From assembly GCA_016787485.1 (NCBI GenBank), contig JAEUUL010000024.1, forward strand, positions 62,001 through 126,000: a stretch of 64,000 nucleotides of DNA, written 5' to 3'. Position 1 is the stretch's first letter. Every line of letters begins with the position of its first letter. The notes below the pieces were generated by a model. That model saw nothing but the letters and a program-made list of their open reading frames with translations, had not been told where the DNA came from and searched no databases. The translations under genes and the position numbers were made by a program. Positions 47,992-52,824 of the stretch are shown piece after piece. The DNA is from Bacteroidota bacterium. GTDB taxonomy: Bacteria > Bacteroidota > Bacteroidia > NS11-12g > UBA955.

Positions 47992-48717
47992 CTACTTTTT
48001 CCTCTTATTCAATCCCATAGTATACGTAAAATTCAATCCTGCCATATAATACCATCGGTCACGATCATGCTGGTTATACCACTCCCCAAAACTTTTTCCC
48101 TTGTGCCGCAGCCGTTCCGCCCCAAAGTTGATACCGGCGCGATAGCGGTCATTCGAACTGCGGACGGTAAAATTCAGTCCGCCATAGAAGGCACCTGTGC
48201 GCTGATACCAATATTCACCAAACGTTTCTACACTACCTGCATTATCAATACGCTTTATTTTGCGTAAATAATATCCAGACTTGGCGGGTAAAGCATAAGA
48301 TATTTGAATTTTTGAAAATAAATTTTTTCTATCAATAACTCTGCATTCCAGTTTTACGCGGTTTATGAACAATTTTGTATCATATATCCAGGTAAATGTG
48401 TCCTGTGTAAAATATTCTATTGTTTTATTATGAATAGATTGTACGCGAGTATCAAAGCCAAATGACCAGGGTTTTCTCTCTATTAACACTGATATTCCCG
48501 AATGAAAAGCCGGATTATACTTTCTAATCAAATATTTCAGTTGAGACCCCGCAAAATCTTTCTTTTCACATTTGGACCAACTAAATCCGGAATATGGCTC
48601 AATCAATATCTTTGAGATTGTCTGCGCCTGAAGAGGATAATAAATAACAATTATGAATAGGCAAATAAATTCCCTTAATCTGACATACCAATGTACAATA
48701 AAAGAATAATTATTCAT
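47992..48717 (-). CDS. Putative outer-membrane beta protein, unknown (AT-rich block)
   Basis: 241 aa. N-terminal hydrophobic segment (REFICLFIIVIYYPLQAQ) that fits a signal peptide with a long basic n-region. The mature protein alternates charged and aromatic residues (Tyr, Trp, Phe), ending in GLNFTYTMGLN, as in small beta-barrels. Base composition is more AT-rich than the core genes nearby. It is the last gene of a four-gene block and starts 3 nt after the previous gene. No family recognised; its relation to the 224-aa neighbour was not tested. Confidence 0.65.
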   Translation of the reverse strand: MNNYSFIVHWYVRLREFICLFIIVIYYPLQAQTISKILIEPYSGFSWSKCEKKDFAGSQLKYLIRKYNPAFHSGISVLIERKPWSFGFDTRVQSIHNKTIEYFTQDTFTWIYDTKLFINRVKLECRVIDRKNLFSKIQISYALPAKSGYYLRKIKRIDNAGSVETFGEYWYQRTGAFYGGLNFTVRSSNDRYRAGINFGAERLRHKGKSFGEWYNQHDRDRWYYMAGLNFTYTMGLNKRKK

Positions 48718-48720
48718 GAA

Positions 48721-49395
48721 TTATAACTTCAAGCGAAATAAATTATACCCAATTCTAAAATTAAATCCATAAGCACCACGAGGATAAGGTTCCAACGCAT
48801 CCACATAAGTGGTATTTTTCCAATAAGACCTGAGTAAAACTTCAGAAAACACCCCAACTGTAAAATTCAAACGGCCATAGGGGTATGTAACATTGATGCC
48901 CGAACGCAAGCCAATCCCTGTTCTGAAAATTTTATTTGACCCCGAAAGGGTGTCTTTATCACGCTTGCCGTTGGGACCAAAAGCATCTATATATGCAGTG
49001 CCCCATTTACCCAATATCAGTGCATTCTCCATGTATATTTTCACCTTTCGGTCCATTAACATGTTACCCATTCCTACTTTAAAGGCATTTCTTTTAATCT
49101 GATATTTTACTGTATCAAAATACTCAAATGATCTCCAGTCATCCCGCACCACGTCCATATACCCTTCGTGTACATAAGACCATCCCAGCAACAAATAACT
49201 TTTGGGCAAGGCAAACCTGGCACTGAATCCCAATGCATGATTTTTGCCCTGAATCTTCCGCAGGTATTCCATATTATCGTTGCGCAATTGCCTTTGCAGG
49301 TCATAATCCAGCTGTAAGGCGACATTGAGCTGACTACGCACTGCTTGATGCATGCCAAGTGAAACCATGAATATCACAATTCTGCTATTCAACAT
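48721..49395 (-). CDS. Putative outer-membrane beta protein, unknown (AT-rich block)
   Basis: 224 aa. Signal peptide about 1-22 (SRIVIFMVSLGMHQAVRSQ). Mature part alternates aromatic and polar residues with Gly turns (LGFSARFALPKSYLLLGWSYV, RLNFTVGVFSEVLL), ending in GYNLFRLKL with an aromatic near the C-terminus, as outer-membrane barrels often do. It lies 3 nt before the 241-aa gene and 3 nt after the GH16 gene, so it is cotranscribed with both. The function is unknown. Confidence 0.65.
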   Translation of the reverse strand: MLNSRIVIFMVSLGMHQAVRSQLNVALQLDYDLQRQLRNDNMEYLRKIQGKNHALGFSARFALPKSYLLLGWSYVHEGYMDVVRDDWRSFEYFDTVKYQIKRNAFKVGMGNMLMDRKVKIYMENALILGKWGTAYIDAFGPNGKRDKDTLSGSNKIFRTGIGLRSGINVTYPYGRLNFTVGVFSEVLLRSYWKNTTYVDALEPYPRGAYGFNFRIGYNLFRLKL

Positions 49396-49398
49396 AAT

Positions 49399-51189
49399 TC
49401 ATGATTTACGATTTTCAATGTAAACTCGCTTAGTATTGGTTTCACCCCGGGAATTCACCATTACCAGATAATAAACACCGTTTGATATTTGATCAGTCGC
49501 AAATGTAAGATCTCCATTATTGTTCTCCTGAAGATTGAATTTCATCATTCTGCCTTGTATATCATAAAGTTGGATTCTTAAATATTTATTTGGAATATAG
49601 GATGTTATATGCAATATATTGCTTTCCTGATATATTCTTATATTTTGTATATCTTTATTAGGCGCCGATTTAACAGGCATCAGGTTCTCATGTATTTGCC
49701 TCCCTCCGGTGATTTCTGAAAACCTTCGGTTAACACCTACCCCTTTAAAGTCAAATGCATCTTTACATAAATCATCCATGGTAGTTTCAATTTCTAATGT
49801 TCCATTCGCCGGGTCCACAGCTATTTCATTGAGTTCTACATAATCATTAGCCAGAATTTTCAGGTATTTCCCATCCGTTATATCATATGCAGAGGTACCT
49901 GAATGGTCCATATCTACCTCAACCTTTTTAGCTGCAATCACATTGTATTCGCATGATTTGAGATTCAATTGTGAAGGGTACTCAATCTTTTTGAAGTCAA
50001 GACATGCAAGTTTGCGCCACACACGAATATAATCTACTTCCATCGTAGCATTAACCTGATTGTTAGGCTCCGGATGATTGCCATTGTTACTGCAATATAC
50101 ATGGGTGTTCAATACAATACGCATGGGCCGGTCGCAATACCTGACACGTTCACCCCAGTATTCATTCTTTGAAACATCACAATCAAAATGCGATAATGCG
50201 CTATGCCTTCCTCCATGGTGTTTTTGCCATTTCAATTTGCCATCCAGAAAAACGGCCAGTGAGTAATCTGTATAAAAGAACGTGAATGTATGAAACGCAT
50301 CAAAAAATGCCCTTCTCTCCAGACTGGAACTATTGTCATACAAGTTCTTTGTCTCCCTGCATTGAATGCTCGCATCAGCTCCTCTGTGGTGTATGGTCAT
50401 CTTCAGCTTATTCCATTCATTGTCCATAAATTCAAAAATATCAAATTCATCTGATTCACCATCAATGGTATTCATCCAGAATGCCGGCCAGAGGCCATCT
50501 TTATCAGGTACCTTTAATTTGGCTTCTACGATTAATCCATCTCCGGTAAAATTTTCACCTCTTGAAAATGCCCAAGTTGTCTGTGCCCTGCCGGAAGTGT
50601 AGAAATAATTCACATTTCTATAATTGTCGGTACAGTCCTGAGCATTATAAATAAAACGGGAATTCCCGTTCCCACACCATGGAACCGCCCATGCCACCGG
50701 TTTTGTATCTATTTTCAAATACCCATTATCTGCGCGTACATTATCCCGCATATATAGTTGTTGACCCTGCATGTTGTTTCTACCGTCATAATAACCTGGT
50801 GAGTTGGGTTCTAAGCATAGTCCGCTGTAATTATCGGAATTCCACCAGTCCCAATCGAATCCTGCGCCATTTCTCTGAAACCACATATTTTCATCCAGTG
50901 TGTTGAATTTATCATGAAAAATAAGCACGTAGGGATTTGTATTACATAGGTTAAATCCAGGGTCTCTTCGCTTCCAGGTTTTGTCTGTACAGTTTTTTAA
51001 CTGGCTTGCCATCGCATTATTCGTAGTATCAGCAATAAAATCTATCCAGTCAGATGTATCTGTGTACATTTGGTAATACATAGAATCCGTATTTAACATT
51101 GAATCTCTGTCCTGACACTGAGTATTACCCGGAGAAAGAAAAATAGTAACTAGCAATAATACAATCAGCTGTTTCATTATTGATTTCAT
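49399..51189 (-). CDS. GH16-type glycoside hydrolase with T9SS sorting domain
   Basis: 596 aa (ATG 51177 is an alternative start). Signal peptide about 1-24. The GH16 domain spans about 85-400: VLIFHDKFNTLDENMW entry and catalytic motif E248-F-D250-I-F-E253 (nucleophile, helper and acid/base of the ExDxxE pattern); the aromatic GLWPAFWMN strand precedes it. The family cleaves beta-1,3/1,4 glucans, agar, porphyran or similar; the exact substrate is not readable. The C-terminus from about 520 has sorting-domain features (NILHITSYIPNKYLRIQLYDIQGRMM, GVYYLVMV) without the usual YPNP. Exported through the T9SS and acting on the cell surface. Confidence 0.9.
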   Translation of the reverse strand: MKSIMKQLIVLLLVTIFLSPGNTQCQDRDSMLNTDSMYYQMYTDTSDWIDFIADTTNNAMASQLKNCTDKTWKRRDPGFNLCNTNPYVLIFHDKFNTLDENMWFQRNGAGFDWDWWNSDNYSGLCLEPNSPGYYDGRNNMQGQQLYMRDNVRADNGYLKIDTKPVAWAVPWCGNGNSRFIYNAQDCTDNYRNVNYFYTSGRAQTTWAFSRGENFTGDGLIVEAKLKVPDKDGLWPAFWMNTIDGESDEFDIFEFMDNEWNKLKMTIHHRGADASIQCRETKNLYDNSSSLERRAFFDAFHTFTFFYTDYSLAVFLDGKLKWQKHHGGRHSALSHFDCDVSKNEYWGERVRYCDRPMRIVLNTHVYCSNNGNHPEPNNQVNATMEVDYIRVWRKLACLDFKKIEYPSQLNLKSCEYNVIAAKKVEVDMDHSGTSAYDITDGKYLKILANDYVELNEIAVDPANGTLEIETTMDDLCKDAFDFKGVGVNRRFSEITGGRQIHENLMPVKSAPNKDIQNIRIYQESNILHITSYIPNKYLRIQLYDIQGRMMKFNLQENNNGDLTFATDQISNGVYYLVMVNSRGETNTKRVYIENRKS

Positions 51190-51198
51190 TTTTCCGGA

Positions 51199-52413
51199 TT
51201 ATTTTGACTCTCTATTAGAAAGCTCGTTTATTTTCTCAGATAAGCCATCAACTTTCTGCTCAAGAAATTGAATCTGCTCATTTTTCCATATTAAATAAAG
51301 TACAAGTTCTTCGATTTTCTGTTGTTGCAATTGTTGCAGATTACACACATCCTGGCCGGATTTCAATATTTCATCCATGGAGGGAAAATCCGGCAAATGT
51401 TTATTGTTATTTATGTAGTGCTTTAATGAATCCAAGGTAATTAGGTTATAGTCCTTTTCAAACACAAAATCAGGCCACCATTTGGGCTTGGCTAACAATC
51501 CATTGCATTTGAGTTTTCCTTGTAATTCAAAATCTCCTTTAACAAGCACATTTCCTGCGGCATCCATGCGTAACCCCCCTCCGCTTCCGTTCATGGGTAC
51601 AATCGCCAAACCTGCACTGGCATTGGTGCCATTCCACGCAGGGCCAGAACCGGGACCGGTGCTGGTGGTGGTCTGTCCCTGTCCATCCGTATAGCTGATC
51701 ACCAAATCTCCCTGTTGGGTAAGACTGTTCAATGTGCCGGCACTAACCCCGCTATACAGCGCTATATGCCGGCTGTAAAAATGATCCAGAGATATGGTGT
51801 TTGGGGCTGTGCCCACTGTAAGATTCACATTCCTCGCCTTTTGTCCGAATATCGCGGTGGGTTTGTTGGTGCTGCCGCCCATTACATCCAGCATGGCGCG
51901 GGGGCTGGCACTGTTTATCCCTGTGCTGCCGTCAGGCAATACCAAAAACCGGGCATTGTCCATGGCTGGTGTGGGATTGGGCATGATATTGCCAGGTGCC
52001 GTAAGATCCCGCACCAGAAACAGGGGCTCTCCCCTGTTTACTGTGCCATAACCCATTCCGGAGGGAAGAATTACAGGTAAGGATGGCAAAGATGCCGAAA
52101 TGGGAATGTACGGCACATCACCTCCGGTGCCGGGTCCGCCAATATCTCCACCTATCGTTCCTCCACCCGGAGGACCGCCGGAACTACAATAGTCCGTAGC
52201 AGTTACCACCAGCCCTTTTACCGGAACCATGGCATTGCAAAAACGGATTTCCTGCCAGCCGGCCGGAATGCCTATTCCTATGCCTACGGCACTGTTGGTA
52301 AGTGTTGTAGTGCCTGTGCCGCCAGGGTCAGGTGCCCAGTTGCCCGGAATCTGGGCATTTACAGCAGTCACAGTGGCCATTGCAGCAAAGGCAATTGCAA
52401 GGATTTTCAACAA
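51199..52413 (-). CDS. Tail-fibre-like surface protein, lead gene of a putative phase-variable operon
   Basis: 404 aa if started at TTG 52413, where the signal peptide LKILAIAFAAMATVTAVNAQ is weakly charged. With one C fewer in the upstream C10 tract, ATG 52459 would be in frame and add 15 residues ending NHKRLL, giving a much better basic n-region. The body has Gly/Pro/Thr-rich linkers (about 78-95), a phage-tail-like NSASPRAMLDVMGG repeat and a C-terminal segment WWPDFVFEKDYNLITLDSLKHYINNNKHLPDFPS found in many Bacteroidota surface proteins, then a coiled coil (about 362-400). No sorting domain is seen. Probably trimeric and outside the cell; exact function unknown. Confidence 0.75.
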   Translation of the reverse strand: MLKILAIAFAAMATVTAVNAQIPGNWAPDPGGTGTTTLTNSAVGIGIGIPAGWQEIRFCNAMVPVKGLVVTATDYCSSGGPPGGGTIGGDIGGPGTGGDVPYIPISASLPSLPVILPSGMGYGTVNRGEPLFLVRDLTAPGNIMPNPTPAMDNARFLVLPDGSTGINSASPRAMLDVMGGSTNKPTAIFGQKARNVNLTVGTAPNTISLDHFYSRHIALYSGVSAGTLNSLTQQGDLVISYTDGQGQTTTSTGPGSGPAWNGTNASAGLAIVPMNGSGGGLRMDAAGNVLVKGDFELQGKLKCNGLLAKPKWWPDFVFEKDYNLITLDSLKHYINNNKHLPDFPSMDEILKSGQDVCNLQQLQQQKIEELVLYLIWKNEQIQFLEQKVDGLSEKINELSNRESK

Positions 52414-52428
52414 CCTCTTATGGTTGTA

Positions 52429-52438
52429 GGGGGGGGGG
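52429..52438 (-). repeat. C10 homopolymer in the 5' coding region
   Basis: A run of ten C (minus strand) is placed 7 codons after ATG 52459. With ten C the frame stops at TAA (52418-52420) after 13 residues. With nine or twelve C it is open into the lead protein; with eleven it stops at TGA shortly after. It is the longest homopolymer in the window. This is the layout of a slipped-strand phase-variation tract; an assembly error is the alternative. Confidence 0.7.
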
Positions 52439-52459
52439 TGTATTTTGTGCGTGCTTCAT

Positions 52460-52824
52460 TGAATAAAATGCACTACAAAGGATACATATAAAAAGGAGAA
52501 AAACATGAGTATAATGTACAAAGGTTCAAAAAAATGTTCATTTCGATTATTCATTACACCCCGTTTTCATAGAATCAGAATGACATGGTCTTTGTAAAAA
52601 ACAAAAAGCTATCTCTTATGTCCAAATCTTATCAAGGATATTGATAATGTATTGGGAATGGTTGTAAATATTTTGTAAAGAATAACTATTCGCAGTATTC
52701 TTGCATATCACCCAGTTTGAAAGGTTAATTTTATAGAATTCCAAGTAATCAACATTATTGGATTCAATATAATGATTAAGGAAAGCTTCTTCCCTATTTT
52801 TATCCGTAATTTCGCGCTTCCTGT
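52460..52824. other. AT-rich intergenic region between the phase-variable block and purB
   Basis: 365 nt without a gene. It holds the likely promoter of the minus-strand block (TATCCTTTG, one base longer in the spacer than TAnnTTTG, near 52474-52482, about 15 nt before ATG 52459) and, at the right end, TAATTTCG (52807-52814), a one-mismatch -7 box of purB. Otherwise it is A/T-rich with no repeat, tRNA or integration signature that I can recognise. Confidence 0.5.

Follow-up and report, generated by a model that had tools for sequence, protein, structure and literature searches.

The analysed window is a stretch of 64,000 nt from the Bacteroidota bacterium assembly GCA_016787485.1 (contig JAEUUL010000024.1, positions 62,001 to 126,000 of the forward strand; GTDB lineage Bacteria; Bacteroidota; Bacteroidia; NS11-12g; UBA955). 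Its minus strand carries a four-gene operon, in which a run of ten C separates an ATG from the body of the lead gene. The following features are distinguished, from upstream to downstream:

52496..52513, minus strand: 18-base upstream box TATACTCATGTTTTTCTC, shared without change by a paralogous operon on contig C8 and almost unchanged in the related genome MAG-330
52418..52459, minus strand: ATG (52457-52459) and the 13-residue abortive frame that it opens at C10, ending at TAA 52418-52420
52429..52438, minus strand: C10 tract (G10 on the plus strand), putative slippage site
51199..52428, minus strand: body of the lead secreted protein, an open reading frame joining ATG 52459 at C9 or C12
52411-52413, minus strand: TTG, possible weak internal start, in frame with the lead body
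49399..51189, minus strand: second gene, GH16 family protein with a T9SS C-terminal sorting domain (PF00722 2.2e-10, PF18962 8.9e-6, TIGR04183 1.6e-5)
48721..49395, minus strand: third gene, small secreted or outer-membrane protein with a crude signal peptide, open reading frame 3 bp after the GH16 gene
47992..48717, minus strand: fourth gene, small secreted or outer-membrane protein, open reading frame 3 bp after the third gene

The body of the lead protein comprises, in order, the remainder of an n-region (YNHKRLLK), a hydrophobic core, an AXA-like site, the mature part and a C-terminal coiled coil. No Pfam or NCBIfam family was found for it or for the products of the third and fourth genes, and an AlphaFold2 model of the lead protein, built from an alignment of two sequences, had a mean pLDDT of 31. 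In most of the homologous loci with enough sequence, the lead gene heads a run of secreted or membrane genes: the next gene is again a GH16 protein with a T9SS-like tail in G039 and G077, which belong to two families, and a lipoprotein-like gene or another T9SS protein in others. Since the intergenic gaps of the window operon measure only 3 to 9 bp, polarity of the lead gene onto the three genes that follow (GH16 enzyme, two membrane proteins) is plausible.

The C10 tract is preceded by seven codons, ATG included, and the minus strand reads ATGAAGCACGCACAAAATACA-CCCCCCCCCC-TACAACCATAAGAGGTTGTTGAAA here. As assembled, the frame yields the 13-aa product MKHAQNTPPPLQP and ends at the TAA, so that the gene is OFF from ATG 52459, as the sequence-only reading had it; both the coordinates and the abortive product given there were recovered on the minus strand. 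Its further claim that nine C would run into the lead surface protein also holds: removal of one C gives a product starting with MKHAQNTPPPYNHKRLLKILAIAFAAMATVTAVNAQ, continuous with a 404-aa open reading frame ending at 51199. At C11 the abortive product has 17 residues. Because the other two frames entering the tract contain no ATG, GTG or TTG, the gene is ON only at C9, C12 and so on, and a change of one unit decides between the full protein and an early stop (C9/C12 versus C10/C11). The N-terminal peptides expected are MKHAQNTPPPYNHK for the ON form and QIPGNWAPD for the mature form. The tract lies inside a coding frame, above the usual G/C cut-off of 9 (phase-variable loci of Neisseria are defined with tracts of at least 9; PMC5953494). 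It is indeed, as had been stated, the longest homopolymer of the window, the next C/G run having 6 bases and the longest A/T run 8. This frame arithmetic explains the tract without an inverton.

In the whole genome of 3.41 Mb, one C/G tract is longer than C10 (11 bases) and one is equal to it (10 bases). All seven C/G tracts of at least 9 bases were inspected. All three tracts of at least 10 bases, and four of the seven of at least 9, are located within the first 30 or so codons of genes for secreted proteins. These four candidate switch loci, with tracts of 11, 10, 10 and 9 bases at signal peptides, comprise three that are one base out of frame and one that is in frame:

Locus (a), window: C10; OFF, ON at C9
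Locus (b), G000:C8:74508: G11 inside the signal peptide MKSKFLPLRRGKHLFIAFGITLAGGGLKAQ; OFF, ON at G10
Locus (c), G000:C26:119767: G10; OFF, ON at G9; at the head of a gene for a secreted protein of 539 aa, after which a PKD protein of 1364 aa is encoded
Locus (d), G000:C29:62975: G9, ON (in frame) as assembled; the signal peptide reads MKNSIKSNCKISHFAVLFGIAFAGGGYSQ, and the next gene encodes a CHU_C (T9SS type B) protein

A signal peptide is present in the ON frame at all four loci, and surface exposure of the products is predicted. Locus (b) is the paralogous operon, with a lead protein about 75-77% identical to that of the window, a GH16/T9SS protein (PF00722 9e-18, PF18962 8.9e-12) and two small membrane proteins. 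Loci (a) and (b), although paralogous, differ in the base and the position of the tract, which implies a separate origin of each. For the lead proteins of loci (c) and (d), on C26 and C29, MAG-330 gave no match. The remaining 9-base tracts, which are intergenic (contig C9, position 19527), in an enoyl-CoA hydratase-like gene (contig C14, position 156055) and mid-gene (contig C38, position 78571), look like background. The same genome contains, in addition, an in-frame G8 in a gene for a secreted and possibly porin-like protein, just past its signal peptide (G000:C8:48707; L016 at 1501).

Length alone is only moderately surprising, since Markov models trained on the window allow 0 to 2 C/G tracts of at least 10 bases per 3.41 Mb (about two at order 2) where three exist. 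It is the position of the tracts, rather than their length, that constitutes the strong signal. Where a gene has a crude signal peptide, its first 120 nt were counted as the relevant zone; such zones occupy about 3% of the bases, as estimated from the window, and the chance of finding three of three tracts in them is roughly 3e-5 if the window is typical. A search of viral contigs for the C10 tract and its flank gave no match.

Among the scanned genomes, MAG-330 (JAEUTN010000005.1, L064) holds the single close orthologue, with a lead protein 68-70% identical and the same gene order as in the window (lead, GH16/T9SS, two small membrane proteins). At the homologous site it carries C12, which is followed by the identical flank TACAACCATAAG and is the longest C/G tract of that genome. 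Tract length, which the sequence-only reading had proposed to compare among related genomes, thus differs in the one comparison available (C10 versus C12). This difference, together with the three further secreted-protein genes having G/C tracts at a similar place, supports the phase-variable switch that it had suggested. The upstream ATG of MAG-330 occupies a different aligned position from that of the window and is OFF at the assembled C12; it would be ON at C10 or C13. The tree gives no branching order for the split of the paralogue versus that of MAG-330.

Homopolymers are error-prone and the body of the lead gene is intact, and a miscounted tract, with a true length of C9 in all cells and a gene that is permanently ON, therefore has to be weighed. 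Such an error could not, however, place long tracts selectively at the signal peptides of four genes, nor account for the C12 that a separate assembly has at the corresponding site. The contigs of MAG-330 bear k141 names, which we take to denote MEGAHIT assembly of short reads; if so, a miscount is less likely there. We consider this explanation very improbable.

A second alternative places the tract in a non-coding 5' leader, neutral or only tuning expression, with translation starting at TTG 52413. This codon would be followed by a good signal peptide (MLKILAIAFAAMATVTAVNA) and has AAGAGG just upstream, yet MAG-330 reads TTT TTA at this place, with no start codon, and its first in-frame downstream ATG leaves no basic n-region. 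The paralogue likewise lacks a start there and reads through its signal peptide from a far-upstream ATG. Comparison of the 5' ends, another check that had been suggested, showed that YNHK upstream of the TTG is conserved and that the TTG itself is not. A start at the TTG thus carries as small a probability as the miscount.

A related arrangement was found in another genus of the family. In G011, a lead homologue on contig C23 (41% identical) has an ATG and 13 codons, then C8 before the signal peptide, and is OFF as assembled and ON at C9. A paralogue on contig C20 of the same genome has non-repetitive sequence at the tract site and an intact frame, and homologues elsewhere in the family and the order are mostly without tracts. 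In a third alternative, steady slippage of RNA polymerase or the ribosome at C10 would provide a constant low yield of full protein, the tract being a recoding site and no heritable switch. A precedent exists in Buchnera, where poly-A transcriptional slippage, in work cited in PMC2831843, gives in-frame mRNAs of frameshifted genes. A recoding site would, however, be expected to keep its base, length and place, and the tracts described here consist of C or of G, range from 8 to 12 bases, differ in place and in one locus are in frame. We regard recoding as the least probable of the three alternatives.

Eighteen other genomes of the family contain 37 tracts of at least 10 bases, of which 35 were inspected (two at contig ends being left out); of these 35, only the one of L116, which is in frame, is next to a signal peptide. 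Several tracts of other kinds were encountered among the relatives. G025, of the same family, possesses very long tracts (G12, C13, C14 and G23; L079 at 1501 and 1649, L107 at 1501, L106 at 1501), and those of L079 and L107 are located towards the 3' end of an open frame; a change in length there would affect the C-terminus rather than turn the gene off. G011 has another candidate tract gene, with an in-frame C8 inside the lipoprotein signal peptide MITKGYKKIAIIIPPLVLFMFFISCSKK (G011:C10:296290; L127 at 1501). In MAG-330, a G10 (G070:C11:135606-135615; L070 1501-1510) directly abuts TATATTTG; a TTTG precedes it by about 22 bases, and a small secreted protein is encoded downstream. As TATATTTG matches the Bacteroidota -7 promoter consensus TAnnTTTG (PMC7366714), this G10 is a possible promoter-spacer switch.

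The 18-base box upstream of the ATG is probably part of a shared promoter region; it is no genome-wide motif, exact copies occurring only in the two paralogous operons. A small upstream open reading frame (MNNRNEHFFEPLYIILMFFSFLYVSFVVHFIQ), the stop of which overlaps the ATG as ATGA, was weighed as a coupled leader peptide and rejected, because in MAG-330 its length differs by one base: the DNA is conserved and the peptide is not.

BLAST comparison of the window operon, its paralogue and MAG-330 gave about 68-75% identity for the lead protein, 24-30% for the GH16 protein, and no detected similarity for the small membrane proteins. Such very uneven divergence within one operon (47992-52413 versus L012 3578-8018 versus L064 7959-12005) suggests cassette exchange or diversifying selection. 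A conserved lead gene in front of diverging cargo would, in our interpretation, be a sensible site for a switch.

We interpret the C10 tract as a simple-sequence contingency locus that acts as a frameshift switch of the lead gene, and assign this reading a probability of roughly 0.84. Slipped-strand mispairing at replication would lengthen or shorten the run of C that separates the start codon from the signal-peptide core; C9 and C12 would give the full secreted lead protein, and C10 and C11 abortive peptides. Through translational coupling and Rho-type polarity, the OFF state may in addition reduce the amounts of the GH16 enzyme exported by the T9SS and of the two small membrane proteins. With four candidate switches in one genome, cells of one clone would differ in their surface sets; a sufficient slippage rate, switching within the population and a benefit from it are presumed. 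The loci are OFF in the assemblies in three of the four cases of the own genome, in MAG-330 and in G011, which is possible with two of every three lengths being OFF but could also reflect decay. A wider proposal, on which we are evenly divided, is that this lineage has a multi-locus slipped-strand phasome, in which C/G tracts were gained repeatedly in signal-peptide codons of the lead genes of T9SS/GH16 operons, so that a conserved lead would toggle fast-diverging cargo.

In Neisseria, Campylobacter and Helicobacter, it is well established that repeat tracts switch surface genes by frameshift (PMC5953494, PMC6321876, PMC11868660). For the Bacteroidota, switching is cited mainly as DNA inversion (PMC11868660), and in Bacteroides fragilis slippage at a run of four C's was put forward as no more than a possibility (PMC3090145). 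Searches of the open-access literature yielded no account of secreted proteins being switched by tracts in Bacteroidota, which is only weak evidence of absence. The mechanism is thus already known, the loci are new and the lineage is probably new, a tract-type on/off switch being seldom described in this phylum. A review from 2025 lists as an open question why genomes with multiple switch loci seem restricted to pathogens (PMC11868660). A tract-based set of several loci in an uncultured member of the Bacteroidota is relevant to it. The exact length predictions at four named loci make this question testable from metagenomic reads.

The repeats of the Neisseria opa genes are located in the leader peptide. 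The poly-C tract of Neisseria nalP is genic, with 9-13 bases (PMC5953494). As in nalP and opa, the tract described here is located early in the coding sequence of a surface or secreted gene, the frame of which shifts when a unit is gained or lost; unlike in Neisseria, the proteins and the phylum are unrelated, the gene is the first of an operon that also encodes a T9SS-exported GH16 enzyme, and the switch is a prediction from sequence. Bacteroides invertons, which include invertible promoters and capsule switches, are responsible for phase variation of surface structures and glycan-related genes (PMC11868660). They share with the present loci the phylum and the surface- or glycan-related genes, but invert by recombinase, whereas homopolymer slippage is proposed here. 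The Gardnerella sialidase NanH3, as cited in PMC11868660, has a slipped-strand switch, which resembles the present one in that tract-driven switching affects a secreted glycan-active enzyme; there the enzyme itself is switched, whereas here it lies downstream of the switched lead gene.
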